Shown piece after piece: positions 5,446 through 54,313 of a DNA stretch of 64,000 nt. The stretch is from NCBI GenBank assembly GCA_905221605.1, contig CAJNDS010002386.1:388943-452942 (forward strand), read 5' to 3'. Made by a program: the position numbers and the translations under genes. Under the pieces are notes generated by a model that saw nothing but the letters and a program-made list of their open reading frames with translations, did not search any database and was not told where the DNA came from. Origin of the DNA: Symbiodinium natans (lineage: Eukaryota > Sar > Dinophyceae > Suessiales > Symbiodiniaceae). How positions within the stretch are numbered: the stretch's first letter is position 1; every line of letters starts with the position of its first letter.

Positions 5446-6115
5446 GCACTTCTCATACTATCATACTATTTACTCATAGCTTGCATGAATGATGCTTGTG
5501 ATTCGAACAGCCTCACTCTTTGAAAGCTCTTTTGGAACCGCACGAGCAGCTCCCATCAAGTGGAATATGTATGCTTTCCATGCCATTATCCGGAATAAGC
5601 TGTTGCATGGACTGGAAACTACAGCTGACTAAACCAGGACAGTCCCGAGTAGATGCGTCTCTTGATTCATTTTAAACACTATGCGACCTGCCTCGGAGGG
5701 GGAGGGTGTGGGGGTGGGGTGAAAAAATTGGAAAAAGGCTGGTTCTGAGGTGTTGCAGGGCTAGGGCTGGGGCTTGTATCAGGGTATGTTCTGGGGATTG
5801 TATCATACCATATTCCGACCCTTATTCACTCCATAATCTCGTCCCCTGCTTCGTTTTCATCATCATCTTCATCTTATCCGTTTTCATTGTTTTGTCACCC
5901 TCTCTCGTTTCGTCCATTACCATTCCATTACCTCATCATCATCATCATCGTCGTCGTCGCCTCTTTCGTTTCTCATCACCATTTTCATTTAAGTAGTTTC
6001 TCACCCTCTTTTTTCATTATCGTAAACCTCCCCCTCCTTCGTTTCATAATTCCTATTGTCGTCTCCTTCGTTTTCTGGGGCGTTGCCACCTCACACGCTT
6101 TTTAAAAGATATTCA
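5446..6115. other. Non-coding, pyrimidine-rich stretch
   Basis: From about 5790 to 6080 the plus strand is strongly T/C-rich with CAT/CGT triplets (5936-5960). No coding signal was seen; small F/S-rich ORFs are composition artefacts. Confidence 0.6.
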
Positions 6116-6218
6116 CAATTATTATTATTTACATTACCTCATTCATTATAATATCTAACGGGCTGTCGCCCACAGCCGGGCACGCCCACCAGCAGCAGGA
6201 CAACGGCAGCAAGCACAG

Positions 6219-6725
<507 letters not shown>

Positions 6726-6801
6726 GGCGCGCGCGCGCGCGCGCGCGCGCGCGCGCGCGCGCGCGGGAACTGGTGCGTTTTCCGCGCGCGCGCGCGCGCG
6801 C
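6726..6801. repeat. Alternating GC dinucleotide tracts
   Basis: A (GC)n tract of about 40 bases at 6726-6765 and another of about 18 at 6783-6800. They are separated by a short unique spacer and directly abut the CAA repeat. Such tracts can adopt Z-DNA. Confidence 0.95.
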
Positions 6802-6867
6802 ATGTCGAGTGCCATGTTATGGAGTTATGCCAGCATCCTTCGAAATCCTGCCGCCCGAAACCCTTTC

Positions 6868-7150
6868 CGGAGCCGCTGATGCTGCTGATGCTCGCCCCCC
6901 GGATCCCCAAAGAGAAACGAAGCCTCGATGATGCGCACCCTGGCCCCCCGCCCGGCCGCGCATCATGAGCATCAGCGGCTCCGGCCTCCAGGCATGCATG
7001 GCTTATAGGGGCATATGCCGGCCTCAAAACGGAAATGTCCGCAACAGCACGAAAACCACGGTATTTACAGCGATTTCTGTGTTTTCCAAGCTCTCAGCCG
7101 CATCCGAAACCCGAGACCCAACCCGCTGATGCTCATGATGCGCGCTCTTG
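6868..7150. repeat. Dispersed GMGCATCAK motif cluster, copy group 1
   Basis: Instances of GCATCATGAGCATCAGCGG or its complement occur at about 6877-6897, 6959-6980 and 7125-7143. Each is two or three near-copies of a 9-base unit GMGCATCAK. The same motif recurs many times between 10260 and 12150. Confidence 0.75.
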
Positions 7151-12269: not shown

Positions 12270-13790
12270 GCCACCTCACGGATGTGGATGCCAAGCTGAA
12301 GCGGGAGGGGCTGGAAATACACAGCAAAAAGGTGGCCATCATCACCAAAGGTGGGCAAGGAGTGGGTCAAGCCCGGGGGCCCGAGGACCACTTCGCGGTT
12401 TTGGGGTCGCCGGTTGCTTTTCGGGGGCAGGCGCACTTGCTGGGAGGGGAAATGGCGGCCAGGGCGTGCAGGGCTTTCTGGGTAAGGAAGGAAGAGCTCA
12501 AAACACCAACGCCCATTAAGCCCAGACTGGCCCTGCACCTCGCGTATGTCAGGCCGGCGGGTGTCCTCAAAGACGAGGACATGGTGGCGGCCGCGCTCCA
12601 ACAGCACACGGAGGGAGACCCACACACCCAGCTGGCAAACATAGCCAAGCAAATCACACGGCCGGCTCCGGCGCCCGGCGAGCCATGGCAAGAGAGCCCT
12701 GAGCTCAAACAACTCCGAGTGGACGCGCATGCCGCACCAGCAGCGGGGAGGAGGCAAGCGTGGAAGGCGGTGTGGAAGCAACTGCAGGCGGAGCGCAAGG
12801 CATGGCGCAAACGCAAGGTGGAAGCGGCATCCCAAGCCAACTGGGGGGAACTCAGGTCCCTAGCCAACCACCGCAGACGCACGCGCTGGGATGGCAAGCA
12901 GCGCTAAAACACCACTTTGAGGGCATCTTCGCCAAGGCCCCGGCAGCACAGGTGGAGGCGGCAATGGGGGCACTGAGACACAAGTTGAGGGGCATGTGCA
13001 AACACCAGCCCTGGAAACCCTTCACACAAGAAGAGTTGGAGGCCACATCAGAAAAATGGGGGAAGCGCAAAGCCACGGGTATGGATGGGGTGGCGCTGGA
13101 AGCTCTTCGTGAGCTCAAACAGCACCAGAACTGGCGGGGGAAATTGCAGTGGATGCTGGATGACTTGCTCAGGGGGGAGGTGGGGCGTGGGGTCACCGTG
13201 CTCATACCCAAAGTGCGCACACCGCAACGAGACCAATCACACTGTCCACCACCATGCTGAAGTGGATGTCACAGCTGCTCCTCAATAGGGGGGCGCACCA
13301 CCTCACACCACTGACACAATTCCAATGGGCATGGAAAGGGAAGCAAGCGGAGGAGCTGCTGATGCTCATGCGCAAACTCACACGCACCGCCGAGGACTGG
13401 GGCATCCAGTTCTGGATAGTTAAGCTGGACATACGCAGCATTCGACAGTGTGCTGCAGCAGTCTCTGGGGGCCATGGTGGCGTCTTGGGTGGGGGAACAA
13501 GGGAAAATGCCTTGGGAAGCGCACGCGTGGCTCAGCCTGCTCCAGGCACAGCACATTCAGGTGGCGGCGGGGGGGGAGCTGGTGGATGTCAGGCAAACCA
13601 CGGGAGTAAGACAAGGGCACCAGATTCGCCGCTGTTGTTTTCGGCACTCATAGGGCGCATACTCCAGCTATGCCTCCCACCACTTCCCCCCAAAGGGGAA
13701 GCACACCAGCGAGCACCAGAGTGCCCGACAACCGGGGGGGCCTTCATGGATGATACCTACCTTTGGGACACGGACCCCGACAGGTTGCAA
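12270..13790 (+). pseudogene. Non-LTR retrotransposon reverse transcriptase, rearranged and frameshifted
   Basis: The first part (about 12270-12560) reads like the post-catalytic thumb region of a LINE reverse transcriptase (KLKREGLEIHSKKVAII). It runs straight into what looks like a pre-RT region (about 12570-12905, basic and helical). RT follows: KATGMDGVALEAL (about 13070-13110), TVLIPK (13196-13213), VKLDI (13420-13434), then GVRQG and APDSPLLF in shifted frames (about 13600-13650). The catalytic box FMDDTYLW is at 13743-13766, equivalent to Y/F-x-DD. At least three frame changes are needed to follow the RT. The thumb-before-RT order suggests recombination between tandem copies. The element is not functional. 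Confidence 0.75.
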
Positions 13791-15298: not shown

Positions 15299-15428
15299 GG
15301 TGGACAGGACGGAGCTCATGCAAACCACGCGTGGAGGAACACGGCCAGCACCATCACCACCAACACCACCTCCACCACCGCCGCCAACACCAACACCACC
15401 ACCGCCACCACCACCACCACCACCGCTT
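15255..15428. repeat. CAC/CCG triplet tract at the left viral border
   Basis: His/Pro-coding CAC, CAT and CCG triplets, densest at 15340-15424. The base composition switches abruptly to AT-rich viral sequence at about 15425-15430. Confidence 0.85.
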
Positions 15429-15900
15429 CAAACCTTCTGATTTGCACAATATTTTAGACAAACAAAAGAAAGTAATTGAATACCAAAAGAAAAACAATGA
15501 AAAGAATTTGTTCAGTATATGCGTAGTCATTGATGATCACAGTGACGACCCAAAATTTATACGATATTCAAATATGCTACACGGTTTATTTACAAGGGGA
15601 AGACATCAAGCGGTGTCTTGCCTCCTCTCTTTACAGAAGTATTCCTCAACAGCTCCAATTTGTAGGTTAAATGCCAGTTCTTTATATATTTTCAAACTTA
15701 AAAACATGACCGAAGTCAATAGTTTTATAGATGAGAATAGTGCCCTCGTAGATAAGAAAACATTATACGATATGTATCAACAGGCTGTAAACGATGCTCC
15801 CTATTCATTCTTTTATATAAACTGTAATAGTCAAGACCTTAATAGAACATTTTATATTAGATTTGAAAAAGAGTTTATTATTGATGATGAAGATATTTAA
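15429..15900 (+). pseudogene. PLV packaging ATPase (FtsK/HerA type), C-terminal half
   Basis: This half keeps the Walker B strand SICVVIDD (about 15511-15534), the following LFTRGRHQAVSCLLSLQKY segment, and the NASSLYIFKLKN sensor-like motif. These are arranged as in the DNA-packaging ATPases of Polinton-like viruses, virophages and polintons. The P-loop half is missing: the viral sequence begins in mid-gene right after a CAC repeat, and the frame is accidentally continuous with host low-complexity sequence back to 14779. In an intact virus this enzyme pumps DNA into the capsid. Here it is a 5'-truncated relic, with no further stop before TAA at 15898-15900. Confidence 0.8.
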
Positions 15901-15933
15901 AGAATAAATTAAAATAGATGCTTATAGCCATAA

Positions 15934-16589
15934 ATGGACTATCAGAATGGCAAGATCTACTGTGTAAGAAACTCTATCACTGATGATATATATGTCGGCT
16001 CAAGTTGTCAGCCGTTATACAGGCGGTTAAGTTGGCATAAATCAAGTTTGAATAAGAAAGGAAAACAACACTTACCGCTATACATCAAGATGAAAGAACA
16101 CGGTAAAGAAAATTTTTTATTGAGCTATTGGAAAACTACCCATGTAATACTAAAGAAGAGTTAAGAGCCAAAGAGGGTGAATACATTCGGAAAATATCCA
16201 CACTTAATACATATATCGCAGGTAGAACTCTACAAGAAAGACTACCGCAAAAGTATGAATATAAAAGCAAGATAGAATAAATAATCCCGAAAAATACAAA
16301 GTTATAGATCGTGCAAAGTATGAAAAGCATAAGCAAAATATATTAAAAGAGCGAAAGCATATTATGAGTTAAAAAAGGATGAAATCAACGGAAACAAGAA
16401 AGAACGTATAAACCATTGTATATGTGGTTCTGTTTATCGTATTAATGTGATAAGAGCCAACACGAAAGGACCCAAAAGCACCAAGAATATTTGAAAGACC
16501 AAGCAAACAAAGAACACACCGAAGAATTCTTGAAACACATTCAGCCAGATTATTTATCATATTTTTTAGATTTTATTATTTATCATTAA
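15934..16589 (+). pseudogene. GIY-YIG family endonuclease, frameshifted
   Basis: The start MDYQNGKIYCVRNSITDDIYVGSS shows the GIY/YIG pair as KIYCV and DIYVGS, followed by the helix with YRRLSWHK. The frame breaks in a T6 run near 16116-16121. It resumes as ELLENYPCNTKEELRAKEGEYIRKI, including the conserved EGEYI glutamate. Later frames give CICGSVYRI (part of a zinc-ribbon-like C-terminal module) and a terminal helix ending FLDFIIYH at 16587-16589. At least three frame changes are needed. Such nucleases are common as stand-alone genes in PLVs and other algal viruses, where they may act as homing enzymes. The copy is inactive. Confidence 0.75.
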
Positions 16590-16801
16590 AATAAACTCGG
16601 ATTACAACAATGTAAATGAGTAAAACCAAAGCAGGGGCATTTCTTTTTCTTTTGCAGTGCCTCTACTTTCTTCTCTTCTTGTTCAAGTTTTGCTAATAAA
16701 TCTTTCATCGCTTTTAATAAAATATCAGTTTCAGGTATTTCTTTGCTTTTCTGTTTTATTAATTCCATACATGCGGCATATTCAGTCTGAAAATCTGTCA
16801 T
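16586..16801 (-). CDS. Small coiled-coil protein of the viral element
   Basis: 71 codons on the minus strand, starting at ATG 16799-16801 behind a TATATAA-like stretch. It is mostly a Lys/Glu-rich helix (residues 10-52) followed by a Cys/His-containing end (CPCFGFTHLHCC) that could bind a metal. It converges on the nuclease relic, with a 4-base overlap at the stops. No family was recognised. The frame is intact, in contrast to its neighbours. Confidence 0.5.
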   Translation of the reverse strand: MTDFQTEYAACMELIKQKSKEIPETDILLKAMKDLLAKLEQEEKKVEALQKKKKCPCFGFTHLHCCNPSLF

Positions 16802-16821
16802 TATATATTATTATTTAGATT

Positions 16822-19210
16822 TTAATCTTTACTTTTCGCTTTAGGTTTTGCTTTTGTTTTTGGTGATGTTTCACCCTTCAATTTCTTAACCTCCTTTTCT
16901 AAATCTTCTACTTGCTTTTGTAACTGTTGCACAGCCCCCCACAATACAACTGCTGTTTTATTATACGCTAATAATTTCATGCCATCATCATTATAATATA
17001 TTATGTTGTCCCATTCTCTTGGCATTTTGGCGTCTTTTATATCATCTGCTATAAATCCAATATGGCTTTTTCTGTCTTCATCGTTAACAAAATTATCTGT
17101 TTTAGGTTTAATACATTTGACTGCTTTATAACATTCTTAAATATTTACTTCTTTAACGTTTTCTTTTAATTTTGAGTCTGATGTTTCTGTTAAAGCAACA
17201 CACGTTAAATTTCCTCCAATATCAGCGTTATTAGTTGTAGTAAAGAAACCATAAACATCAACACCTGTGTTTGTGGCGGCTAATCTTGATAAATTAGTAT
17301 TGCTTAATCAAATCAATCCATCATCGTCTGATTATTAATTAACACTCTTTGTTGTCCTGAAACGTCAGTATTTGTAAGTTCCAGTTGCCCAACTAAAGTT
17401 ACTTTTCCGTCTGCTAATTGTATTTCTGGTGTGCTACTTTCTAAACCCATTATTAAATTCATTTCTCCCGCTTGATCTCCATTTCTGATATATAACTTAT
17501 ACTGAGTATCTAATACTTCTCTAAACTCTGATGAATTTTGGAACTTCATTTTTCCCCAAGTTCTTAAATCTGCTTCCGCTGTTAAATTACCAATGCTATT
17601 AAATGTTAAATTATTTGGAACTGCCCAATTTAATGTAATTCCGTTAGTGTCATTCAATTGGACTGCAATAGTGGCAGTTGTTGGATCGGTTGTTCTATTT
17701 GATTGTAATGAAAAGTTAATCTCTTCTGTTGATATTACATTTCATGAATTATTAGCATCGATACGCTGAAATATTCTACCTGAATTATTAACATAAATAT
17801 CTCCGTTAAGTGTTGATGTATTTTGAAACGATGCTGTCCCGCCGAAATTTGCATTTCCACCCGATACATTTAGTTTATTTGCACCTTGGATAACTCCAAT
17901 ACCTAAACTTAAACAATAAACGCCATTACCATTAGCAGTATTCAATAAAAGTAATGAAGAACTGTCGTTGCTTGCGTTATAAGCATTAATATTAAATGAA
18001 TTAAATTTCAAATACCCTTGTGCATTTTTAACTGTCATAACATTAGAAGCGCCCGTTGTATGTTTATAAAATGTTAATCCATTAGTATCATTAATATTAA
18101 AACTTTCACCATCAAAATTTAAATCATTTGTTAAATCTAAATTAACATCCACTTTTAAATTTTGTCTAACAATAGCACTATCAACAACATCTATTGTATA
18201 ACCGCCTGTTAATGTTTCTGCCCCACTATCTACTAATAATGAATGTGATTTAACATATTGATTAGCACTACTATTTAAATGTAAAATCCTACCTGTATCA
18301 CCAACTGAATTCTAACAATCAATATTATCATTATTAAATGTACTATAATTATCAGTATTTCTAACGGTAAATGATAAATTAGCATCTGCTGTATTTTCTA
18401 CAACAAAACCACCTGTTGGTGTTTCTATTTTACCACTCATTTTATACCCTGCATTATTATTTGATAAATCTAATTGTTTAATGGCGTCGTCTGGTGTATT
18501 ATTACAAAATATTTTATCACCTTGTAAAGTTATATAACTCGTCGCGTTTTTAAACTCTGCTAAAACTTTATCACCTCCTCCTGTTTGATTGCTAAAGAAT
18601 AATCCTTCTACTGGTGATATATTTATAGTTGAATTGTTTAATGTTAATCCGCTATGAATAACAGTTGGGGCACTACAATCAATTATAGGATTGGCGCTAA
18701 ATCTATCAGTAAAATCTGATTTTGGAACTCGTAGATCTAATAAATTATCAATTTCTGTATCTGTGTAACCGCCAGATCCAGCCCCCGCTAGTAATGTATC
18801 TACCTCGCCCTTGTTATAATAATTGGTTGCCAGTTGCGTGTTAGTTTGAAAATTAGTTGATAAATTTGTATCAATCTCACTTTTATTATAATAATGAACC
18901 CCTAATTTGGCATTAGTTTGGTAATTAGTTGATAAATTTGTATCTATTTGGGTTGATGTGGAATAATTATTAAGTGTTGAATCAATCTCTGTTTTATTAT
19001 AAGAATTCGTGGCTAGCGCGGCGTTAGTTTGATAATTGTTAGTTAAATCAGTATTCAGAACATCAATAGCGTCAGTGTTTGATTGTATTTCTACTGCGTT
19101 GGTTGTGATGTCTTCACTTGTTGCGTATAGTTGCGATAATTCCGTCCCTTCTAAATGAAACTTATCTGCATTTACGGTTTGCAGCCTGTTAAAGTAACTG
19201 GAACATTCAT
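16822..19210 (-). pseudogene. Long fibre protein with S74-type chaperone C-terminus, decayed
   Basis: Read 5' to 3' on the minus strand, the gene starts at ATG 19208-19210 and shifts frame within the first 12 codons. It then shows a run of fibre repeats with a YNK(T/S/G)E(I/V)D core and about 25-30 residues per unit (19030-18780). A beta-strand-rich region follows with many NDTNGLTFY/NDTNGITLN-like units. The end (17210-16822) resembles a peptidase-S74 intramolecular chaperone: TSDSKLKENV, HIGFIADDIKD and a terminal coiled coil. In-frame stops are TAG at 18312-18314, TGA at 17742-17744 and TAA at 17137-17139, with a further frameshift near 17305. Such trimeric fibres mediate host attachment in viruses and phages. 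This copy is clearly disabled. Confidence 0.75.
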
Positions 19211-19256
19211 TAGTAAATATTATTTAATTAGATAGTAATATTTTCGAATGTTTTAA

Positions 19257-19457
19257 TTAAGTATGAACCATTGGTGTATCTGCCATAATTTCAAGAATAT
19301 TTGAACTGACTAGGCATGTTGTAATTTCTTCAATTGCTTCTTCTGTTCCTGTTAAATTAGCATTAGTTCCACGAATATTTAATGTTAATAATGCACCAAG
19401 TTTAGAATTTACCCCAGTTAAATAATTTTGATCCATCTTTTGGAAATTAATACCCAT
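19257..19457 (-). CDS. Small viral protein of unknown function
   Basis: 66 codons, ATG at 19455-19457, overlapping the last 11 bases of the capsid gene, so translation may be coupled. It has no membrane segment; it is a mixed alpha/beta sequence with TCLVSSNILEIMAD near the end. It could be a short virion or assembly factor encoded between capsid and fibre. Family unknown. Confidence 0.45.
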   Translation of the reverse strand: MGINFQKMDQNYLTGVNSKLGALLTLNIRGTNANLTGTEEAIEEITTCLVSSNILEIMADTPMVHT

Positions 19458-20778
19458 AATAAATTTTTTTTGCTCTGTATTGATTATATTTAATGCTCAT
19501 ACTATCTTGATCGGGATTGAGTAAAGATACAAATCTACGAAGATAATACATATGCTCACTTAATGAAGAAGAGGCAACTTCTGGATATCGTTTATTACAA
19601 AGTAAAACATCAAAAGCTAAATCTAAATTTTTATTAGCGTATCCATAACCAACTTCATTACCAGTTGCCCCCGTTCCATTAGAGAAAACGGTGTAATTAA
19701 TCATCGGATTGTAAAAATAGTTCCATTTTTTGAAAACGTAACGGTCAAATCGTGATTCATTATTCATACTGAATATACCTTCTGTTCTTGGCTTACGATA
19801 AAGTGTAACAAACATGCCATCTAAACGAGTAGCAGATTTAACAACATTAAGATTAATTTCACCTGTTCCATTTGCTATTGTTTGACTTGTCATGTGATAT
19901 GATTTATATAAAATTTTCATTGAACCACCGCTTAATAGTCCCTCCGTGTGTTTTTCTGAAACTTTTGGATCTAAAACAGCGATATCCGCTTTCAGTGCTA
20001 GTGAATTCAATTCCCAATCTACTCCAGTATTACCTTCCGTGAAAAAATAATTTTTGGCATCGGTATTTGTTCCACCTGAAGCAACTGGCACAATAATCGG
20101 ATTAGCATCATTAACAAGGGTTAATTCAATTTCTAAACCAGAAGCATGGCGAAGAGGCAAATAATACCCAGAATTCAAGAAGCCTGAACAACACTGATGC
20201 CCAAGTCGCACCCATGTTTGAGGGTAAATACCTGCCATCGTGTGCCTTGTGAATTTCTGTCGTAAATCACCGAACTTGTTCCAGTTTCCAGCACCTGCCA
20301 CATCTTCTTGTAATCCAGTAGCATATGTATGTGCAAGATCATCATCGTATCTCGGATTCATACCACTTTCAATGTCATCTAAATCACGAGCGTCAGGGGA
20401 TTTGAAGCAATTCCAAATCTCACAGAATCTATTGTAATCTGTTATATCTTCTACAATCTGCCCACCAACCATAACTCGTAGTCGTGAGAAGCATGAATGT
20501 AGTTGTCCAATAAATCTTCAATATCTTGTTGTTCCCGCTTCATTGTTTTTAAGATTAGCAAGAATACGAATACTTGATAAATCTAAATAAGAATTAGTGT
20601 CAGAGGCAGGTAAATGAAATTTAATTTGTCTATTACCCGCCCCTACTGAATAGATATTTGAACCAGATGGGGCGTAGGATACTTGACGTCTATCAATACC
20701 ATATCTGCCGAGGTTCTCAATGCCATATTCAAAACCACCAACAACATTTGGCTCACTTTCAGCAATAATATTTTCCAT
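19447..20778 (-). pseudogene. PLV major capsid protein (double jelly-roll), one internal stop
   Basis: A single frame of about 443 codons from ATG 20776-20778 to 19447, interrupted only by TGA at 20518-20520. The segment LRVMVGGQIVEDITDYNRF and the later HQCCSGFLNSGYYLPL and HASGLEIELTL match the pattern of double jelly-roll major capsid proteins of Polinton-like viruses. In that family a V-x-G-G-x-x-(I/V)-E-(D/E)-I segment precedes a long alpha-helical insertion, and a (L/I)-P-L strand starts the second barrel. The protein would form hexon-like trimers of an icosahedral shell. It sits between the fibre and lipase-like genes on the same strand. Apart from the stop the frame is clean, so the nonsense change appears late. 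Confidence 0.85.
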
Positions 20779-20809
20779 TAGTATATATTATTTATTAGAT
20801 AAAAAATTA

Positions 20810-20938
20810 TTATTTTTTTAATTTGTTTAAACTTTTTAAATTTAAATTAATATCTTTATTATTCTTAATATTTGGTTTATTAATTGTTTCATTGACATTT
20901 ATTTTATTCTCTCCTTCTTCAACAATTTCTCTAATCAT
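20810..20938 (-). CDS. Short Asn/Lys-rich ORF
   Basis: 42 codons between the capsid and lipase-like genes. A second lysine-rich frame lies just upstream (about 20940-21010, minus) and is separated by a one-base shift, so both may be parts of one decayed small gene. No domain was seen. Confidence 0.25.
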   Translation of the reverse strand: MIREIVEEGENKINVNETINKPNIKNNKDINLNLKSLNKLKK

Positions 20939-21044
20939 ATCATAACCTTTTGTTTAATAATTCTTTTTGGCTTTACCTCTTGTTGTTTCTTATTTTGCTT
21001 TGCTATAATTATATTATATAATATATTACATATTTTTTTACTGG

Positions 21045-21728
21045 TTAAGTATTATTAGCAGTATTAAATTCACTTCTACCTTGATCAAAGAAATTAAAAT
21101 AACTGTGTGGGTTTAATGTTCCTTGTGGAACTGTTATACTACCTGTATCCAAAACAGCCACTGGATCTAACGCCGTCCTGAAATTTAACTGATTGTCATC
21201 TCTGGCAGTTGATGAAGGTAAAGATGTAATAGGACTTGAATATGAATTTTCAGCATATTTATCATTAGAATTCTTATTTAAAACTTTAACAACAGCCGAT
21301 CCAAGACTGTGTCCAACCAAACGCGTAACCTCTGGTGAAGTTTGAAGCATTTCGTAAGCATCTTTATATCGTTCGCTTTCTTCAAGTCTGTTAAACGGAA
21401 TATGAAAAATATCACTAAAAATATCGTTTGCTAAATTTTTACCAGAAGTGCCACTTACATATAATGTATTACCAAATTTATATAGTCCTGTTCCAGTTCT
21501 ATAACTTTTATACAAACCTTCAGCGTCACTAATTAAATTAACATTATTGATATTATTATTATCTCTCATATGTTTTTGAATCTTTTGTATTATTCTTTCC
21601 CTATCGCTATTTACTTGTGACGTTGTGGGCGTTTCTGTTCTTTGTGTAGATGGTGGCGGTCTTCTGTTGCCTCTTGCTAAATTTGGGTAACGTTGCCCTC
21701 TTATTAACAGTTCTAAATCTTTCCGCAT
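21045..21728 (-). CDS. Lipase-like alpha/beta hydrolase, putative virion protein
   Basis: 227 codons, intact. The nucleophile elbow VGHSLGSAVV lies around residues 137-146 and fits the class-3 lipase GHSLG pattern. A likely acid is in ALDPVAVLD, and a His follows in NPHSYFNFF. The N-terminal 60 residues are basic and Pro/Thr-rich, unlike the enzyme core. Lipase-like genes occur next to capsid genes in several PLVs and parvovirus-like systems, where they may help membrane passage; here that role is only inferred. The gene is divergent from the penton gene, with a 52-base AT-rich spacer holding promoter-like sequence. Confidence 0.65.
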   Translation of the reverse strand: MRKDLELLIRGQRYPNLARGNRRPPPSTQRTETPTTSQVNSDRERIIQKIQKHMRDNNNINNVNLISDAEGLYKSYRTGTGLYKFGNTLYVSGTSGKNLANDIFSDIFHIPFNRLEESERYKDAYEMLQTSPEVTRLVGHSLGSAVVKVLNKNSNDKYAENSYSSPITSLPSSTARDDNQLNFRTALDPVAVLDTGSITVPQGTLNPHSYFNFFDQGRSEFNTANNT

Positions 21729-21780
21729 ATTATACTACTATTTTATAAAATATTAAAAATCTAATTAAATATATACATTA
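21729..21780. promoter_or_regulatory. Divergent viral promoter region
   Basis: The 52-base gap between the lipase-like (minus) and penton (plus) starts is nearly all A/T. AATATATACATT lies immediately before the plus ATG and a TATA-like run lies on the other side. The same TATATA-to-ATG spacing recurs before other genes of the element (see 22784, 23391, 23755). Confidence 0.5.
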
Positions 21781-22713
21781 ATGAGTAGTAGAGTTTTAAA
21801 ATACAAAAAGGTATTCGTAGATAGTGGCAGAAGACTAACCTCATCTAATTCATCAACTGATTTTGAAATTGGATTACAAGAAAATTTTGAATGTCCCGCT
21901 AATACTCAATGTTATGTAACAGAAATAGCAATACCTAATTCATTTTATACAGTAGAAGAGGGTCATAATGATTTTTTATATATTGAATTAGAAAATGCAG
22001 TTACACCAGTTGATAGTTTTTATGAAAAACGATCACTACAATTAGATCAGGGCATTTATACCCCATTGGGTTTAATTGAGCACATAATAACAAAGGCAAA
22101 TAACTTATATGCTGGAGCTGGTATAACTAATTTATTTACTGGTTCTTATGAAGAGAAACTTAACATTTATAAAATTCAAGCTAAACTTAATTACAAAGCG
22201 AAATTTTTAACTGATGATGACATATATGAAACAACCGATTCTGTATGGAGCATAGTATTTAGAGGGGATAAGAGAATACGTCCCCAATCAATAAATAAAA
22301 TGATAGGTAATTATTCTGCGACTCAAACTGTTATAACAACTAGCAGTTTATGGACGGGCTTCCCTATTGATCTCAACCCGTATAGGATACTATATATATC
22401 TTGCCCTGAATTATCAAATTATAATCAACATATACCAACTGAGTATTCTTCAAGTATAATTAAAAAAGTTTTAGTAAATGCTGGACAAGGCGGTCAGATA
22501 ACGGACGAATACCCTCTGGTTAGTGACTATGTTGATGTAAGCCATAAAAATCTTAAAAGGTTGCATTTCAGAATTGTTGATGATACTACTAAAGTTGTGA
22601 ATTTGCATGGTGTTGCTATTTCCTTCTCATTGATTTTTCAAAAATCAAGCATTGACCAAGATAAAAAACTAAAGCAACAACAATATCTAAAATCATTGAA
22701 CCAACCAATTTAA
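21781..22713 (+). CDS. PLV minor capsid (penton) protein
   Basis: 310 codons, uninterrupted. The start VLKYKKVFVDSGRR and the Ser/Thr-rich SSNSSTDFEI section, and above all the terminal VVNLHGVAISFSLIFQKS, are characteristic of PLV/virophage minor capsid proteins, where an LHG-x-x-(I/V)-SFS-(L/I)-x-F strand ends the single jelly-roll. It would form the pentameric vertices of the capsid whose hexons come from the divergent major capsid gene. The last 20 residues are a Lys/Gln-rich helix. It is the best-preserved large gene of the element. Confidence 0.8.
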   Translation: MSSRVLKYKKVFVDSGRRLTSSNSSTDFEIGLQENFECPANTQCYVTEIAIPNSFYTVEEGHNDFLYIELENAVTPVDSFYEKRSLQLDQGIYTPLGLIEHIITKANNLYAGAGITNLFTGSYEEKLNIYKIQAKLNYKAKFLTDDDIYETTDSVWSIVFRGDKRIRPQSINKMIGNYSATQTVITTSSLWTGFPIDLNPYRILYISCPELSNYNQHIPTEYSSSIIKKVLVNAGQGGQITDEYPLVSDYVDVSHKNLKRLHFRIVDDTTKVVNLHGVAISFSLIFQKSSIDQDKKLKQQQYLKSLNQPI

Positions 22714-22791
22714 AAACTGCCCTAACCAATTATTAATAATATTATTTCTATTTTACATAAAAATAGAAATAATATAAACTATTATATATAA

Positions 22792-23315
22792 ATGTCAGCC
22801 GATGAAGTTAATACAACTATTGAAGCAGATACAGAAGTAAAGAATGAAGAAGCGCCAGAAATAACTGTTGAACAACCAGCTGAAGCAGTTGAAAACAAAG
22901 TAGTGACACCAAAAGCAAAACCAAAGGCAACACCAAAACCGGAACCTAAAGAAGTATCCCCTGGTGATTTCCAAACTAGGGCAGAAAGGATTAAACATAA
23001 AAAAAAGTTAAATGTGAAGGCTGTGATGCTGTTTTGAATCTTAAAACTTACAGATGTACCCACAAATGTAAGGGCAAGTTAGAAGATAAGGAAATTAAAC
23101 CAAAGCCAAAAGCAAAAGTCAAAGCAGTAGCAGTAAAGCCACTGACCAATTCATCGCCAATAAATGATATTACCAATATTGAAGAAAGAATACAACAATA
23201 TCAACATCAACAACCAGTTCAAGCACCGCCAGAACCAAAACCATTTAGCATACAAGATTACTACAAACAATTAAGGCAAGACGCTGTTAATAGAAAAAAA
23301 AGCAGAGGTGGATAA
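22792..23315 (+). pseudogene. Pro/Lys-rich protein with C-x2-C/C-x3-C zinc module, frameshifted
   Basis: The first frame (22792-23037) is acidic, then rich in PKAKPK-type basic repeats. In the A-run at 22999-23006 the reading has to shift one base to continue as KCEGCDAVLNLKTYRCTHKCKG, a compact Cys4 zinc-binding candidate (23008-23070). A second basic tract and a helical end to 23313-23315 follow. The two frames plainly form one gene, broken by a homopolymer length change. It might be a DNA- or virion-associated protein. Programmed frameshifting on the A-run is possible but unsupported. Confidence 0.5.
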
Positions 23316-23398
23316 TCTTACTAAAAATATTTTTAAAGGTTGTCGTGCCAAAAAAAGATTTTAGTAAATAATAATAAAAATATCACTAGTAATATATA

Positions 23399-23734
23399 AT
23401 GATTTCGCCATACAAAAGACCTAAAATGAAAAAGAAAATGAGGGGAGCAATTCATGCAGTATTACCATTAAGTTATACTAGTTCAGGTTATTCACCGTTT
23501 GAATTCCATGATCCAACTTATTTACAGCATTTACGAGAAATGTTAAAATCACAAGAGACTAAAGAATTTACAAGAGCACAACGTGAGGCATTAATAGAAC
23601 AGTCAAAGCGTGATAATTACCGTCAAGAATTGTTAAGGCTTCAAAATGAAATTCCTAGATATTCTACAGGTCACCCAACAAAAGCACATTTAGAACAAAG
23701 AACTAAAGAACTTGAAAATTTAACTAAAATGTAA
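23399..23734 (+). CDS. Basic helical viral protein, unknown
   Basis: 111 codons, intact, behind AATATATA. The N-terminus is strongly basic (RPKMKKKMRG), followed by a short apolar stretch and two Arg/Glu/Gln-rich helices. It lies in the plus-strand run downstream of the penton gene, a region usually holding virion and core proteins. No family was recognised. Confidence 0.5.
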   Translation: MISPYKRPKMKKKMRGAIHAVLPLSYTSSGYSPFEFHDPTYLQHLREMLKSQETKEFTRAQREALIEQSKRDNYRQELLRLQNEIPRYSTGHPTKAHLEQRTKELENLTKM

Positions 23735-23763
23735 AAACTAAATTCTAATTTTAAATATATATT

Positions 23764-24748
23764 ATGATGAAACGATTAAGTCCTAATGCTTATGGATTAC
23801 GAAGGCAATTAGCTTATGAAGAAGTGGCGGGGATGCTTGATAATTCTAAATTATTTACCCCTTTACCAGAATACCCTTATACAGAATATAAAGATAGTTT
23901 TGAAGGTAGTTATTTTGATAATATAACTGAAAGAATAGATTTACTTAAAGACCAACAACAGAGAATTCTTGACAGGCAAATGACTGAAGCAATGTTAAGA
24001 AAAGAAGCAACAAGTAGAGGTGTTGATATTAATGTTTTAAGAGCACAAACAGCACCGACTTATTATGATATTGGAGATCAAGGACGGACTGAAGAAAGCG
24101 AAATGATGAGCGTAATGAGTTTTGGGAGACAAAGGGAAGGCATTGAAGAAAGGATGAGAGATTTTGAAGAACAAGAAGCAAGAGATAGAGAACAATCAAG
24201 GTCAAGCGTATCTAGAATAATTGGTGGAGGTTTGAATACAGCATTTCACGGATTAACAAGGCAATTTCTGGGATCAAGTGGATCAGCACCTGCTACTGGA
24301 TCAAGACTAGAAAGAGAAAGTGGAGTGGCAAGTGAATCAATACCCCCTGTAGAACCAAGATTAGAAGGGCAAAGTGGAGTAGCAAGTGAAACAGTGCAAC
24401 CTTCCCAACAAGAAGTCCAAGCAGTCGGCAGAACGAGAATGACAAGTGATTATTCAGAAAAAGATGCAGATGACTTACCTTTTGCACGAATTTCAGAATT
24501 CTTTAAATCAGTAATAAGAAATAATGAAGTATCTGAAAGGGGCAAAGAAATGTATTCTGAAATAGAAGAAGACAGAAGATTAAGCAGAAAGCCAAATAGT
24601 CAAACATTAGAACTCATAAGAAGTTTATTTAAAAAAATTTCAAGACACTGAAAAGATACCCAAACAAATGAGAAGAAATGTTTCAAGATATACTCAAGAT
24701 CTAATCACTCGTGGAGGTATGCGAAGTTCAGGAAGTAGAAGCACATAA
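23764..24748 (+). pseudogene. Charged viral protein with internal repeat, frameshifted at its end
   Basis: The open part (295 codons to 24651) is rich in Glu and Arg. It contains a tandem repeat, (R)LERESGVASESIPPVEPR then LEGQSGVASETVQPSQQE (24305-24415). It is followed, after a one-base shift in an A7 run near 24630, by DTEKIPKQMRRNVSRYTQDLI ending RSSGSRST at 24746-24748. The Arg/Ser end resembles that of the next gene, suggesting related nucleic-acid-binding tails. Function unknown. Confidence 0.45.
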
Positions 24749-24769
24749 AAATATCTAACATAAAAGAGT

Positions 24770-25479
24770 ATGTTTCACGCTAGATACAAAAAGAAACGGA
24801 TAGTGAAAGATGATGATGATTTATTACTGCCTCATTATTATAATCCTTATCATTCAGGATATTATAGAAGCCCGTTTAAATCTAGCAATTATTATTTTAG
24901 AGATGCTACAACACAAAAAGATTATCAAATACAGAATCACGATATATTTCCACATATGTATGATATTATTGATGCCCATGCCGATTTAATTAAAACTAAT
25001 CGTGAAAATAAAGGCGATGCGATTTTACAAACAATACAATATATGTTTAAGAAGAATCAAACCCCATACAGTTCAATAGCATCATCTAAAAAGAGTAGCA
25101 GTAGCAGTAGTAGCGATGACAGCAAACCTTCACCAAATCAACAATTACTAAATGATTTAGCAACCGTAGCAAGAATAGGAGGTAAAGCATTGTATTACGG
25201 TGGCAAAGGTGTTTATAGAGGAATTAAAGCAGGTGTGGATACTTATAATTGGTTAAACGAAGAAGAAGGTGAAGAAGTAAAACCACCTATGAATGAAGAA
25301 GTATTTAATAGAACTCAACGAATAGTAAGACGAGGGGCAAGTCGTAGCAGATCACCAGAAATTACTAGAAGAGAAAGAAGTAGAATGACGAAGAACCATC
25401 AGGCAGTAATGACGCTATGAGAATAATTAGAAGAGGAGCGCCACGAAGTCGCAGTAATACACCACCTAAAAGAAAGTAA
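24770..25479 (+). pseudogene. Viral protein with Arg/Ser-rich tail repeats, frameshifted
   Basis: The main frame (216 codons) has a Tyr-rich N-terminus (LLPHYYNPYHSGYY), a poly-Ser linker (25093-25120), and a Gly/Tyr segment GKALYYGGKGVYRGIKAG that could be membrane-active. The C-terminus carries RRGASRSRSPE. A one-base shift near 25395 restores EEPSGSNDAMRIIRRGAPRSRS and NTPPKRK, ending at 25479. So the motif RRGA-S/P-RSRS occurs twice. Such SR/basic tails suit DNA condensation or nuclear targeting in a capsid core. No family was recognised. Confidence 0.45.
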
Positions 25480-25513
25480 TCATAATAATATTAAACATCT
25501 AAATAATACTATT

Positions 25514-25611
25514 ATGACTGGAGCAGTTGCTGATGTAAATAAAAATACCCAAATTTGAATGTAAAATTAAGTATTAAAAGAATAGATTTTCATAGATCAC
25601 ATTAAACTGTC
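25514..25611 (+). pseudogene. Fragment of a small viral ORF
   Basis: ATG 25514 gives MTGAVADVNKNTQI and then a stop. The neighbouring frame continues NVKLSIKRIDFHRSH. It may be a short gene split by one frameshift, or chance. Confidence 0.2.
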
Positions 25612-25651
25612 TAAAATAGTATTAAAGAAATATTTTTATATAATATAAATA

Positions 25652-25975
25652 ATGACTGAAACAAATAAAACAGATATTGATGATGAAAATATTACAACAA
25701 GTGAAGAAGAAATAAGAATTAATTTAAGAAAGCAAATAAAAGAATTACGGCAACAATTGAAAGACCATTCAACATATAAGGATAAACTCCCAAAAGATCC
25801 AGAATATTTTAAAAAGTATCAAGCAAAATTATACAAAGAAAATTTATGTGAAAGAGTGCCGTGCGAATTATGCGGAAGATTACAAACATTGAAACATATG
25901 AAACATCATCAGGGGTTGCCAGTTTGTTTAAAAAATAGGAAAGTTCCTAATTTCATGTCTAAAACAATGTTTTAA
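25652..25975 (+). CDS. Small zinc-binding viral protein
   Basis: 107 codons, intact. An acidic N-terminus and a charged helix (residues 20-60) precede CERVPCELCGRLQTLKHMKHH and a later C (LPVC), giving CxxC...HxxxH...C spacing typical of a single zinc finger. TTAAAGAA (25623-25630) and TATAATATAAATA lie just upstream, a pairing shared with other genes of the element. Similar CELCG/H-x3-H fingers occur in viral GIY-YIG proteins and small regulators. A role in transcription or DNA binding is a guess. Confidence 0.5.
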   Translation: MTETNKTDIDDENITTSEEEIRINLRKQIKELRQQLKDHSTYKDKLPKDPEYFKKYQAKLYKENLCERVPCELCGRLQTLKHMKHHQGLPVCLKNRKVPNFMSKTMF

Positions 25976-26025
25976 AAATGTATTAAAGAATTATATTATA
26001 ATATTATATATATATATATATTATA

Positions 26026-26947
26026 CTGTTATCAACTGACTTTGGCGAGACTTTCAACTTTAATTTAAAACCATTCAAACTACAAAACAATATTAAATGT
26101 AAAGATATTATAAGTTTAAGTATCTTTAATACAATTAAATATGATAAAAATTTAAGCAGTGAAAATAAACATAAATTGAAATATTATTATGAAAATTTTA
26201 TTAAAAATAATGGTATTTATGAATATAAATTAGGTAAAGATGAATAATATAATTATGGCAGATTATCAGTAGAAGATAATAATGGATTACAAGATTTAGA
26301 AAGAAAAATAAGAAATTCAATTTTTCGAACTGGTGATAATAAAAGTTTTACTCATACTGATTTAGATATTCAAAATTCAGTTCCTACAATATTATATAAT
26401 TTTCTTTACAACAATAAAGCAGAAGTATTAGATTACGTGGAAAGCAGAATAGCGCGAGCACGACATGAAGCACCATACGAAAGCGATTTAGTAGCAAGTA
26501 GAATATTAAATACAGTTAAACCATATACAACCTTTAAAAAAGTTTTGTAACATATTTAACTGAATATATTCACAAACGAGAAGAAATATTTAATAAAGTT
26601 ATTAGTTATTATAATGTCAATAAAGAACAAGCAAAGAAGTTATTTATTAGTATATTAAACGGTGGAACTTATAACGGATGGTTCAAGCAAGTAAAACAGG
26701 CTGATAATATAAGGGATACTGACATAAAGAGTATTAGAAATTTCTTGTTAGTTTTGAAGATGAACAGAAAATGATTACAGACATTATAGAAGATAATCGG
26801 CATTTACAACATTTAAAAACTGGCATTACATCAGATAAACTAAATCAAATAACAAATTTAGAAACGAAAATTAATGATTTAAAAGAAGAAAATAAGAAAC
26901 GAGGTAGGGGTTTCCTTCCTCCCGACCTTCCTACTATACCTTTTTAA
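26026..26947 (+). pseudogene. Decayed replication protein, possibly TVpol-like
   Basis: No ATG remains at the 5' end, although the frame is open from 26026. After an in-frame TAA at 26245-26247 comes NYGRLSVEDNNGLQDLERKIRN, then HTDLDIQNSVPTILYNFL (about 26352-26405). In a shifted frame there follow VNKEQAKKLFISILNGG (about 26620-26665) and, after a second shift, a helical end to 26947. The GR...LQ...R-IR / D-DIxN-P-IL / K...LNGG order resembles the polymerase-like region of replication proteins in PLVs, virophages and relatives (the TVpol group), with D-x-DI as a possible catalytic strand. The helicase part expected in full-length members is not seen. The relic is non-functional. The family call is tentative. 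Confidence 0.45.
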
Positions 26948-27091
26948 AATTCAGGTAGCCAGTCACCACTCCACCACAGAATTATATAAGGTTATGGTTT
27001 ATAGTTTGTGGTGGCTCAAAAGTCGCCACAAAATATTTAATAATATGTTAAAAAGGTCTTAAAGAAATAATAACATATATTATTAATCAAA

Positions 27092-27433
27092 ATGGAAATT
27101 ATTAATAAATATTATGATGAATTAAATAAACTACTGAGAGGCAACGGCGAGAAATTAGCGGATATATTCGTAAAGAGAGCCCAACACAAACATTTATTAG
27201 AAAAGTATAATAATACATTAAATGAAAATGATAAAATATTTTTTGATAATCATATGACAGAAATTGAAGATGAATTTAATAAAATTAATAATGATATTGA
27301 TAATTTAAAAGATCTTATTAATGATTTAGAAGAATTTTTTAATATTGAACACGATGAAGATAGAATGAAAGCAATATTTCACGGCGATATAAATGATGAA
27401 GAAGAAGAAGATGATGAAGATGGAAGAAAATGA
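27092..27433 (+). CDS. Acidic coiled-coil viral protein
   Basis: 113 codons, intact, behind CTTAAAGAAATAATAACATATATTA. Nearly all helical, rich in Asn, Asp, Glu and Ile, ending in a run of Glu/Asp (DINDEEEEDDEDG). Its stop overlaps the start of the next small ORF. No family was recognised. Confidence 0.5.
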   Translation: MEIINKYYDELNKLLRGNGEKLADIFVKRAQHKHLLEKYNNTLNENDKIFFDNHMTEIEDEFNKINNDIDNLKDLINDLEEFFNIEHDEDRMKAIFHGDINDEEEEDDEDGRK

Positions 27434-27545
27434 TATTAATGGAAATATTAAAAATGAATGGGAACTAAAAATGTCGATGATGAGAGCAGAACACAAAGAA
27501 GAAGAAACAAGAAGCGAAACACCAAGCGAAGAATTAATAATTTAA
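27420..27545 (+). CDS. Short charged ORF overlapping the previous gene
   Basis: 41 codons starting at ATG 27420, overlapping the preceding gene by 14 bases in another frame. It encodes an acidic helix. It could be a genuine overlapping gene or the frameshifted tail of the upstream one. Confidence 0.3.
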   Translation: MEENDINGNIKNEWELKMSMMRAEHKEEETRSETPSEELII

Positions 27546-27626
27546 AATTATAAAATTATTTTTTGGAAAATTCCTTGATATATATATACAGGAAAAATAT
27601 TTTCTCGCCAAAATAATTTTCTTAAG

Positions 27627-27832
27627 TTTATTCAAAAATATTTAGGGCAAAATATTAAAATATTCAGGGCAAAATAGTTTTTTTATTACACTTATTCAAA
27701 AAATAATATTCTCGTGCGAAATTTTTTTTGATACTTATTGAAAAAATATTCAGGGCAAAAATATTAAAATATTCAGGGCAAAATAATTTTATTACACTTA
27801 TTGAAAAAAAATATTTCAGGCGAAATCAAAAA
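27627..27832 (+). repeat. Subterminal repeats at the right viral border
   Basis: The unit TTATT(C/G)AAAAATATT(C/T)AGGGC, followed by AAAATATTAAAATATTCAGGGC, occurs at about 27627 and 27744, and a shorter form at about 27800. A stretch TTTTATTACACTTATT links the copies. Repeats of this kind often lie near the ends of PLV and virophage genomes, and the host-like G-rich tract begins only about 45 bases further on. Confidence 0.7.
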
Positions 27833-27879
27833 TGGAAAAGGTGGAAAACTTTTTCTACTAATTTTTATTGATATATGAA

Positions 27880-44389: not shown

Positions 44390-45460
44390 CTTTATATATC
44401 CTTACCACGATGGCTTCTAGCCAGTTGGGTGGGACCTCTGCAGACATAAGTATTTGGTTATAGTATTCCAATAATGTGCTTACAGTGGAGTGGTCAAGAA
44501 GGAGGAATACGTCTGCAGGTATGTCATCTGGCCCTGGGGCCTTTCCTGGCTTGAGGGTGCTTAAGACCTCTTGGATCTCTTCTAGTGAAAATGGGGTCTC
44601 GTCTTCTGCTGTGGGGAAACATGAGGGGCCTAGAGATTAATGTGTTGGCGTCGGGGTCGGGGATACTTTCCCTAAAGGCTTCATGAGTACGGGGCCAGGG
44701 AACTGGTCTTCCGTGCTGTATGAGGTGTGATCGCTTACCTACAACCCACGTTTCTGTCTTCTTACCGCGTCCCAAACTGTTGACGAACTGCCCGAAGGTC
44801 TTGCAACAGTTGTTGATGGGTCCAGTGTACTCTATCCCGCCTTGCCATTTTCTTTGCTAAGTTTCTGAGTTTTTTGGCCTCCGGTAAAGACTGGGCTGCT
44901 GCGCTGCGTGCTTTTTCTAGGGCTTGCAAAGTTTCGTCTTTGATCCATCGGGTGCGTGGTCGGTGTGTTTGCCTAGGGACATGCTGCCTGAAGCGCCTTT
45001 GTAAGTGAGTCGTGTCCGACACCTTCCGCCGGGGGGGGGGGGGGGGGGGGGGGCACCGTCTTTGGGTGTTGGGCGGTTCCTGGCGGCCCTTGTTGTCAAG
45101 GGAGTCGGCTCTTTCATTGCTCTCGTGGCCCTTGTGCGCCTTTATCCATGAAAGTATCACTCCCGTTGACCCCTGACGGATAAGCTGACGTATGCGGTTA
45201 ATGAGCTGTTTATGCGCTGACGGGCGCCATTTGCCTTGGATAACGTTAAGCGCCCATCTGCTGTCTGAGTGTATTTCGATGCGGGGCAATTCCTGCTCGT
45301 TGGCAAACATTACTGCCTCGGCAATGGCGAGCCTACCGATGCACCTAGAAATGCGGAGTGGTCTGGGGTGACGGGGCCGTCCATTCCCCGTGGAATTTAG
45401 CGCACCAACCCCACCCGGCTGTCGTATGAGCACTACACCGGCCTCTTGACCCGGAACCAT
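44390..45460 (-). pseudogene. Non-LTR retrotransposon: RNase H followed by start of RT, truncated
   Basis: Reading the minus strand from 45460: an RNase H domain with AIAEAVMFAN, EIHSDSRWALNVI (about 45235-45275) and WIKAHKGHESNERAD (45104-45148), giving the E, D and D residues of the active site. A G14-20 run (45030-45052) and a basic linker follow. Then comes a segment typical of the region before RT (LRNLAKKMARRDRVHW). After a frame change there is ETPFSLEEIQEVLSTLKPGKAPGPDDIP (about 44600-44515) and LEYYNQILMSAEVPPNWLEAIVV, the fingers region of a LINE RT. The RT is cut off near 44390 before its catalytic box. RNase H normally follows RT in LINEs, so its position in front is unusual. Confidence 0.75.
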
Positions 45461-45587
45461 CCGTGTAAAAATGTATTACGGCGGAGTGGTCATCCGGGGC
45501 GTCCGGCTGAGAAGCAAAGGGTAGGGGAGGGTGAAGATGTGCTTTGAATGTGTCATTAAAGTGCTCTTTTTGTTCATCCGAGAGTGA

Positions 45588-46440
<853 letters not shown>

Positions 46441-46624
46441 TTATATTCATGCCTCGCGGGCTCGTTATAATATAATGAATAATGCACTCTCTACGTCTTT
46501 TAGTATTAATATAGTGAGCTCGTGAATGGGGGTTTTTGTAATCATAATATAGTGAGCCTGCGAACGAAGGCCCTGATAAATTGGAAGATGTCCGGGCAGG
46601 GGAGCAAGCTTCGAAGGGCTCTAC

Positions 46625-47446
46625 TTGGCAACTTCAATCACCGCTGCAACAGGCGCAAGGGAGCCGTCGTACTTTGACTTGACGCCCAGCAGTGAGCAGG
46701 CACCGACCTTTGGAGACCAGGATACGACTTCTGCTTGGTGGTATCAGAATGGAGACGAGCCTGAGAATTGGGGTTCGTGGGGACAAGGGAGAAGGGAAAG
46801 AGATCCTAGCAATCCTTGGGGCCTCACGATGCCACCACCTGGTCTTGGATCCAGACGACAGACATCTTCGGGAAGGCCAACGAGTCCAGGCGAAACGCCG
46901 GGCACCAAGCGAGTGGCGCCTGAAATTGCAAATGGCAAGTGGAAATGCTGGACGGATCTTCCGAAATACCATCGGGAGCCGGGGGAACCTTGGGAGCTTG
47001 GAATGGCTTTTACAACTTGGAAGCGACAAATCTTGGCAGTTTGCACTACCGTGGCGCCAGAGTTTGAAGCTTTTGTGGAAGGGAGATTTATGTTGGCCCA
47101 GACGAGACATGAGAGCAGAATGTCAGGAACTTCTCCGATTGAGGTTCCTAAGCTTGAAGCCTGCTTTGAGACATATGAAGCTCGTTTTGTGGTCAGCCTG
47201 ATGCGAATCCATCCAGCAGAGGTAAAAGACAGCGCGGTAGAGGATGCAGAGCATAAGATTACTTCGCTGGCTTTGCTTGAGGAGCTGGTCCACTAAGTCC
47301 AACCAGGGGGCCAGGAGGAGATAGCCAGTCTCCTACGATATATGCGAACTCTTGAGCCAGCGTCCTCCGCAAGGGACACGCTGGAGTGTATACGTCGGTG
47401 GAAGCTAGCCAGGTCGCGAGCAGCAGCCTTCAACCTCCCAAGTACT
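46625..47446 (+). pseudogene. Retroelement gag-like fragment with a nonsense codon
   Basis: The 223-codon frame begins with a low-complexity region (WWYQNGDEPENWGSWGQGRR, PPPGLGSRRQ) and then a GEPWELGMAFTTWKRQILAV segment, a helical middle and EHKITSLALLEELVH. Right after TAA at 47294-47296 the same frame continues QPGGQEEIASLLRYMRTLEPA and CIRRWKLARSRA to about 47446. There it is cut off by the subtelomere-like repeat. The W-K-x-x-x region plus the Gln-Pro-Gly-Gly and RRWKLARxRA pattern resembles gag proteins of LTR retrotransposons in dinoflagellates. Only the gag part remains; no protease, integrase or RT follows. Confidence 0.55.
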
Positions 47447-47454
47447 GCCGCGGC

Positions 47455-47740
47455 AAATAGATGTGTTTGCAAAGCGCCCCTTGGAAACAAATTCGTTTTT
47501 TTGTCGTGGTTTTGGGCCCTCTCGGACAGGTCTTGTTTTACAACTACTCGATTTGATTTCGGTTGCTTGAAGCCAAACCTCAAATTTCTAAACCCAATTT
47601 GAATTCCAGGTCCAGCTGGTCCTGGGTCTTTAAACCCGATTTGAACCCCGGGCCCTTAAACCCCAAACCCGGCTCGTTTTAAACAGATTTGTTTTCCAAA
47701 CGCGCTTTCGAAGCATTTTTGTTTGCACTGGATTTCCAAG
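47455..47740 (+). repeat. Telomere-adjacent repeat X, copy 1
   Basis: Contains GATGTGTTTGCAAAGCGCCC, CTTGGAAACAAATTCGTTTTT and, further on, TCCAAACGCGCTTTCGAAGC. Matching copies are at 53297-53556 and, shorter, at 54516-54590. Each copy borders degenerate telomere-like sequence. Confidence 0.85.
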
Positions 47741-47754
47741 CTTGATTTGAAACC

Positions 47755-48412
47755 CTAAAGCCCTTCTAAACCCATTTAAACCAGTCTGAACCCTTGTAAG
47801 CCCTAAAAACCCTTCTAAAACCTTGCAAAGCCCTTCTAAAACCCTTTTAAGCCCTTCTCAACCCTTGTAAGCCCTTCTAAAAACGAAGTAAAACCCTTCT
47901 AAATCCTGCTTAACCCTGTTACATCATCTAAAACCCTTCTCAACCTTCTAGACCCTTATAAGCCCTTAATGCCTTAACACATTTTTAAACCCTCCTAAAA
48001 CCCTTCGAAACTCTTCTAAACCCTTCTGAACCCTTTAAACCCTTTTACCCCGTTTAAACCCTGCTACACTCTTCCAAGCCCTTCTAAATCCTTCCAAGCC
48101 GTAAGCCCTTCTAAATCCTTCTAAGCCCTGCGAAATTCTTGGAAACACTTCGAAGTTCTTCGAAATCCTTCTAAAACCCTTTCAAACGCTTCTAAACCCT
48201 TGTAAGCTTAACAACCATTTTAAAAACTTCTAAAATCCTTCGAAACTTTTCGAAACCCTTCTAACCGTTTTAAGCCCCTTTAAATGAACCCTGAAAAAAC
48301 CTTGTAAACTCTTTTTGGCCCTTCTACTTCCAAATCCTTCAAAATTCCTCAATTTACTTCTAAACCTTCACCCCTCTTCTAAACCAATTGCCCTCTAAAC
48401 GCTTCTAAACCC
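47755..48412 (-). repeat. Degenerate CCCTTCTAAA telomere-like tract
   Basis: Irregular units such as CCCTTCTAAACCCTT, CCCTTGTAAGCCCTT and CCTTCGAAACCCTT run for about 650 bases with no coding frame. They look like diverged CCCTAAA repeats on the strand opposite to the following TTTAGGG array. Confidence 0.75.
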
Positions 48413-48601
48413 TTAGGGTTTAGGGTTTAGGGTTTAGGGTTTAGGGTTTAGGGTTTAGGGTTTAGGGTTTAGGGTTCAGGGTTCAGGGTTCAGGGTTTAG
48501 GGTTTAGGGTTTAGGGTTTAGGGTTTAGGGTTTAGGGTTTAGGGTTTAGGGTTTAGGGTTTAGGGTTTAGGGTTTAGGGTTTAGGGTTTAGGGTTTAGGG
48601 T
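48413..48601 (+). repeat. Interstitial TTTAGGG array 1
   Basis: About 27 units of TTTAGGG, with three TTCAGGG variants in the middle. It is the longest and purest such array in the window. Confidence 0.97.
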
Positions 48602-54264: not shown

Positions 54265-54313
54265 TTAGGGTTTAGGGTTTAGGGTTTAGGGTTTAGGGTT
54301 TAGGGTTTAGGGT
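54265..54313 (+). repeat. Interstitial TTTAGGG array 3
   Basis: Seven units, again followed by GTTCGCCAGCGCAGCTGGCG. Confidence 0.95.

Follow-up and report, generated by a model that had tools for sequence, protein, structure and literature searches.

A decayed polinton-like virus in the genome of the dinoflagellate Symbiodinium natans and the discordant histories of capsid and packaging ATPase among its sampled relatives

Endogenous polinton-like viruses (PLVs) of dinoflagellates are already in print, as the 'Dino group' (Bellas et al., 2023; PMC10120064) and as OmPLV of Oxyrrhis marina (PMC12721341). The element described here, positions 15427-27877 of a 64,000-nucleotide stretch of the Symbiodinium natans genome (contig CAJNDS010002386.1, positions 388,943 to 452,942; the whole stretch is called the window below), belongs to this published kind. 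We are confident that it is the decayed remainder of an integrated PLV, truncated on the left, and in sampled relatives from the same genome a shared history of the capsid and the packaging ATPase is rejected. The Dino group likewise consists of endogenous PLV-type capsid genes in very many dinoflagellate copies, and its major capsid proteins have been called distantly related to others, including that of the virus PgVV (PMC10120064). The likeness is one of description, not of direct sequence comparison, and an exchange between ATPase and capsid is not described in the part of that paper examined. PgVV (Gezel-14T) is reported to possess a capsid gene, a lipase (ORF6) and a TVpol-S3H fusion (PMC4642659) as well as a phage-like fibre protein (PMC12220804), but its replication accompanies that of a giant virus infecting a haptophyte; here, too, we compare descriptions rather than sequences.

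OmPLV (PMC12721341) resembles the window element in being an endogenous, AT-rich element of a dinoflagellate with inverted repeats, an A32-type ATPase, a GIY-YIG gene and fragmented copies. It differs, according to the examined part of its description, by a helicase-PolB fusion and by a minor capsid protein that is absent or unrecognisable, whereas the S. natans elements have a penton and another helicase-type replicase. Replacement of replication genes has been reported in PLVs. The EMALE virophages of Cafeteria (PMC8547959) are likewise small endogenous viruses that recombine and replace genes; the capsid module of one type may have been swapped, and even single proteins within the morphogenesis module differ in the clades that they neighbour. 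However, the examined part of that study does not describe a change of ATPase beside near-identical capsids.

The assembly in which we searched (759 Mb, 2543 contigs) holds numerous relatives of the window element, designated here by C numbers. The 91 capsid matches merge to at least 85 loci, many deep inside long contigs, and the penton has at least 128 scored matches, two loci being counted twice. In an assembled ATPase list, an ATPase lies within 9 kb of the capsid at 77 of the 85 loci; C2061, C466, C1535, C225 and C1836 are five further capsid loci with an ATPase. A complete-looking sister copy of 20.4 kb (C740:3234-23644) carries genes for an ATPase, a GIY-YIG endonuclease, an S74 fibre, the capsid, a lipase-like protein, the penton and a replicase with a helicase domain. 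Its own capsid included, five capsids are close to that of C740, with rounded identities of 94% in the window, 98% in C1218 and 100% in C901 and C2401; the next values are 47-49%, followed by 37-39%.

The sampled copies behave as mosaics that swap gene blocks around a stable core of capsid, lipase and penton. Over the best aligned pieces, the three core proteins of C2401, C1218 and the window are 94-100% identical to those of C740, whereas the ATPases reach 44% (C2401), 44% (C1218) and 60% (window). The helicase-replicase of C1218 is 95% identical to its C740 counterpart, those of C2401 and the window 33-35% over short stretches; the recombinase-like protein of C2401 is 100% identical, that of C1218 73% over 180 residues. 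At its fibre end, C402 agrees to 97% with C740, in its capsid to 38%; the fibre end of C2401 agrees to 42%. Judged from these identities, the genes for the packaging motor, replication and the fibre differ among the sampled copies as if they had been swapped. Up to the ATPase leader, C740 and C2401 share 99.06% DNA identity across 2982 nt; past it, identity is 67-68% over the matching ATPase and GIY-YIG parts, then 79% and 95.8%. Upstream of the ATPase start, the frame is similar among C740, C2401 and C1218, and likewise between C680 and C1291, while the coding part differs.

The sample consists of ten elements, of which C1291, C2056 and C2141 were chosen for their outlier ATPases and the others for comparison, plus C740, C2401 and C1218, taken in for their close capsids. 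Since elements were partly picked as outliers, the sample is not random, and the pairs are not independent. Identity comparison and tree tests covered 12 elements; they excluded C2326, whose capsid matched in two frames, as well as the window copy and C901. Three additional loci (L018, L021 and L022), read in a wrong frame, were disregarded in the ATPase alignment. Five sampled pairs with 98-100% identical capsids have ATPases of 45-48% identity (for example, 99 and 48% for C1291-C680, 98 and 46% for C2141-C1635), and the converse is seen in C740-C369, with 38% for the capsid and 94% for the ATPase. Two capsid clades, C740-C2401-C1218 (p 5e-5) and C1291-C680-C1953-C369 (p 9e-55), are rejected by the ATPase data, as are two ATPase clades, C740-C369 (p 4e-56) and C1291-C2056-C2141 (p 7e-8), by the capsid data. 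A third group tested on the ATPase data (C2141, C1635, C2182, C402, C2056) was defined by identity and forms no clade in the capsid tree; it does not count as a clade test. The long branches C1218 and C2401 join in the ATPase tree, which calls for caution in reading that tree. Within the sampled elements, the tests reject a shared history of capsid and ATPase. Identities of capsid and ATPase to C740 showed no significant correlation across 77 loci (Spearman 0.18, p 0.11; input of 85 capsid loci and 82 ATPase rows of a longer list plus 5 others), and neither did the pairwise values in the 66 pairs of the 12 elements (Spearman 0.11, p 0.36).

Several copies speak against a general exchange. Capsid and ATPase are both 92% identical between C402 and C2182, and 97 and 83% between C680 and C1953. 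Ten copies (C25, C680, C479, C591, C2202, C113, C393, C1804, C2170 and C2505) share an identical ATPase score and nearly equal capsid scores, as if they had been copied whole; hence, not every copy is a mosaic. Packaging ATPases with one identical score, 56% identical to that of C2401, occur at 17 places (C1276, C1899, C1967, C2031, C2213, C2220 and others); they are perhaps another, recently spread PLV family.

That the mosaic is an artefact of assembly, produced from collapsed or misjoined repeats, appears unlikely to us. The genome does hold many similar copies, C740 and C901 (99.7% identical over 16.7 kb and flanked by the same tandem repeat) may represent one insertion assembled twice, and C2401 contains 1214 N in a 10-kb stretch at its left end. 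Yet a misjoined repeat needs a donor for the ATPase, and none was seen: among 142 scored matches, the next best to the C2401 ATPase has 58% identity, and the C740 ATPase is present in both C740 and C901, the next one, in C369, being 93% identical. Moreover, 55 synonymous changes between their capsids mark C740 and C2401 as separate copies.

Beside these, the two capsids differ by 3 non-synonymous changes despite a rounded identity of 100%, so that synonymous divergence (dS) is 0.19 and non-synonymous divergence (dN) 0.0025. The capsid is under strong purifying selection between copies, and we read this as descent from working capsid genes, not as copying of dead DNA. Between the open piece of the window capsid and C740, there are 36 synonymous and 16 non-synonymous differences (dS 0.178, dN 0.019), an excess of dN as expected for decay after insertion. 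This excess is modest, as the capsid of C1218 reaches a dN of 0.013 to C740 with an open frame.

The assignment to the PLVs, already made in the preliminary description, is supported by the fold matches of penton and capsid and by the at least 85 related capsid loci. The predicted structure of the single jelly-roll penton (21781..22713) matches viral pentons. The capsid is probably a double jelly-roll major capsid protein: all 50 of the 50 listed fold matches are double jelly-roll proteins, although the model is poor (pLDDT 40.8) and the match concerns its first part. Further points weigh against the assignment. The capsid has no Pfam match above the cut-off (best PF16903, 0.0034, matched by at most 2 of 13 members) and no sequence match in PDB, no protease was found in the portion of open reading frames (ORFs) scanned, and the recombinase-like gene of C740 (a 418-amino-acid ORF resembling a tyrosine recombinase by eye) has no Pfam support; no match to it was found in the window copy. 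Scans of phage records, of viral contigs (three scans) and of PDB sequences found no named relative.

A mavirus-type virophage in place of a PLV seems to us quite improbable. Mavirus and Sputnik capsids do occur among the listed fold matches of the poor capsid model; lipases, in PgVV among others (PMC4642659), S74 genes, called ubiquitous across the PLVs of most eukaryotic groups (PMC12220804), and GIY-YIG genes (PMC12220804) are all reported from PLVs. Within the part of the C740 ORFs scanned, neither pPolB nor the rve integrase of Maverick/Polinton proper was present; a helicase-type replicase was found in their place. The suggestion of the preliminary description that a lipase-like gene together with an S74-ended fibre may mark an undescribed lineage has to be dropped, since even the examined parts of this literature report both as PLV genes.

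Contamination by DNA of a free virus or a foreign organism joined into the contig can practically be dismissed: sharp composition edges would suit it, but many of the related capsid loci lie deep in long contigs, C740 sits inside a tandem repeat with empty units, and the window copy is decayed. The edges of the block are sharp to about 100 bases, and its AT-richness within a GC-rich host region, noted beforehand, holds in the composition scan (GC 0.305 against 0.547 outside). A dinoflagellate host, likewise anticipated, is supported by 205 exact matches in the assembly to the dinoflagellate spliced leader, against 0 for the reversed control.

The gene content first read from the block was recovered as well, from the ATPase fragment to the replicase remnant. 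Behind a CAC-rich stretch on the left flank, the A32-type packaging ATPase is entered mid-gene (15427..15900, forward strand; Pox_A32 1.2e-5). This C-terminal part lacks the Walker A region, retains a Walker B-like CVVIDD (read by eye), begins to align at residue 127 of the C740 ATPase and is at most 71% identical to the ATPases of other copies. Full-length genes match Pox_A32 at 2.7e-12 (C2401) and 1.1e-12 (C1218), while the C740 ATPase gave 0 Pfam matches. The P-loop of the C740 (L023:8277-9122) and C369 ATPases reads ASSQGGKG, without the usual Ser/Thr after Lys; the other full-length ATPases in the alignment have SSTGGK[TS] or G[PQ]SGSGK[ST]. A GIY-YIG endonuclease gene split over several frames follows (15934..16589, forward; PF01541 5.3e-7 for 15934-16161), its C-terminal 33 residues being 61% identical to the C740 protein. 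On the reverse strand lie a small ORF without assigned role, known from the ORF list alone (16586..16801), the fibre gene, which encodes an S74-type C-terminus and is split over five open frames, its pieces being 77-89% identical to the open, 814-residue C740 fibre (16822..19223; C740 fibre PF13884 2.6e-9), the capsid gene in three open pieces (19257..20787; 94% to P0001) and a lipase-like alpha/beta hydrolase with S141, D188 and H208 (21045..21728). The hydrolase alone has no Pfam match; among 13 aligned sequences, 3 match Hydrolase_4 (best 2.2e-5), 2 Abhydrolase_1 and 1 Lipase_3 at 0.068, and in one, P0016, the motif serine is absent.

The forward strand then carries the open penton frame, small ORFs in a broken frame (22792..23315), the second of which matches C740 ORF218 (67% over 105 residues), and three conserved ORFs without assigned role, of 111 (23399..23734; 94% to C740 ORF113), 295 (23764..24651; 62% to ORF305) and 216 amino acids (24770..25420; 95% over 207 residues to ORF243). 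A listed 107-residue ORF has a Cys/His cluster that looks zinc-finger-like by eye (25652..25975). The replicase relic (26002..26947, forward; 34% over 148 residues, E 3e-14, to the C740 protein) comprises an N-terminal part, TVpol-like by motifs read by eye, and is missing the helicase part that C740 retains (PF19263 4.1e-15, PF05272 8.3e-11). Sister copies match 16460-26028 in pieces at 74-93% DNA identity. With its left end lost inside the ATPase, its helicase missing and several frames broken, the window copy looks dead.

Its right terminal inverted repeat (27035..27877, holding an ORF at 27092-27433) is present, and C740, C2401 and C1218 have both. Positions 27035-27433 are 91% identical over 404 nt to both inverted repeats of C740, the outer part 74%, and the terminus GATATATGA resembles that of C740, GATATATG; the window copy retains the true right terminus of the element. 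The inverted repeats are 99.2% identical over 1676 nt in C740 and 100% over 855 nt in C2401. At the right ends of C2401 (263229, L028) and C1218 (27294, L032), a common palindrome-like AAAGGTATACCT lies past the terminus shared by C740 and the window. The C740 element sits within a 1.58-kb tandem repeat, of which empty units are visible in C901, and is flanked by GAAA on either side, the left flank having an additional T. At C901:13491-20000 (L030), a tandem array of the 1.58-kb unit adjoins the element.

From the gene set, particles would be built from capsid and penton, attachment would be mediated by the S74 fibre, the hydrolase may aid membrane crossing, the ATPase would package the DNA, and a tyrosine-recombinase-like enzyme might integrate it. 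The window copy itself can hardly be capable of such a cycle.

Elsewhere in the window, positions 45875-46393, inside an AT-richer region (45000-55000, about 38-47% GC), hold a fragment of mitochondrial cox1 (COX1 PF00115 4.1e-23), probably organelle DNA copied into the nucleus. By eye, ORFs at 12760-13260 and 44762-45475 resemble reverse-transcriptase and RNase H parts of retrotransposons, and one at 55763-56533 a helicase-like C-terminus. The strand is A/C-rich at 6001-7000 (GC skew -0.415, AT skew 0.581). Rfam and tRNA scans of the 64-kb window gave 0 matches.

As to how ATPases might be exchanged, one may picture these PLVs as a reassorting population in which the ATPase is a swappable allele and recombination occurs at its conserved leader, perhaps driven by the adjacent free-standing GIY-YIG gene. 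We regard this picture as doubtful, and the involvement of GIY-YIG through co-conversion, a process known from phage T4 endonucleases, as a guess. A search with the C740 GIY-YIG protein places a match directly behind the ATPase in 6 of 13 other elements (C1218, C2141, C2326, C2401, C369 and C740) and none at that position in the remaining 7, although a distant GIY-YIG could escape this search; in two of these seven, C1291 and C2056, a weak match appears on the opposite side. GIY-YIG does not travel with the ATPase as a general rule, as C369 and C740 combine 94% identical ATPases with GIY-YIG proteins of 30% identity.

Capsid and packaging ATPase are usually handled as a single module, inherited together. 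Woo et al. (2021; PMC8328091), in the part examined, describe their trees as largely congruent and concatenate them, while granting minor discrepancies through lateral transfer. A packaging-ATPase exchange beside near-identical capsids was not met in a limited search of the PLV literature, itself examined in part. In the sampled copies of this one genome, the two genes are decoupled in both directions, which is a warning against concatenation at this scale. The many copies in the S. natans genome constitute a large natural data set on which virus genes must fit each other. While the window copy is ordinary in itself, the genome that surrounds it allows modularity in small DNA viruses to be put to the test.

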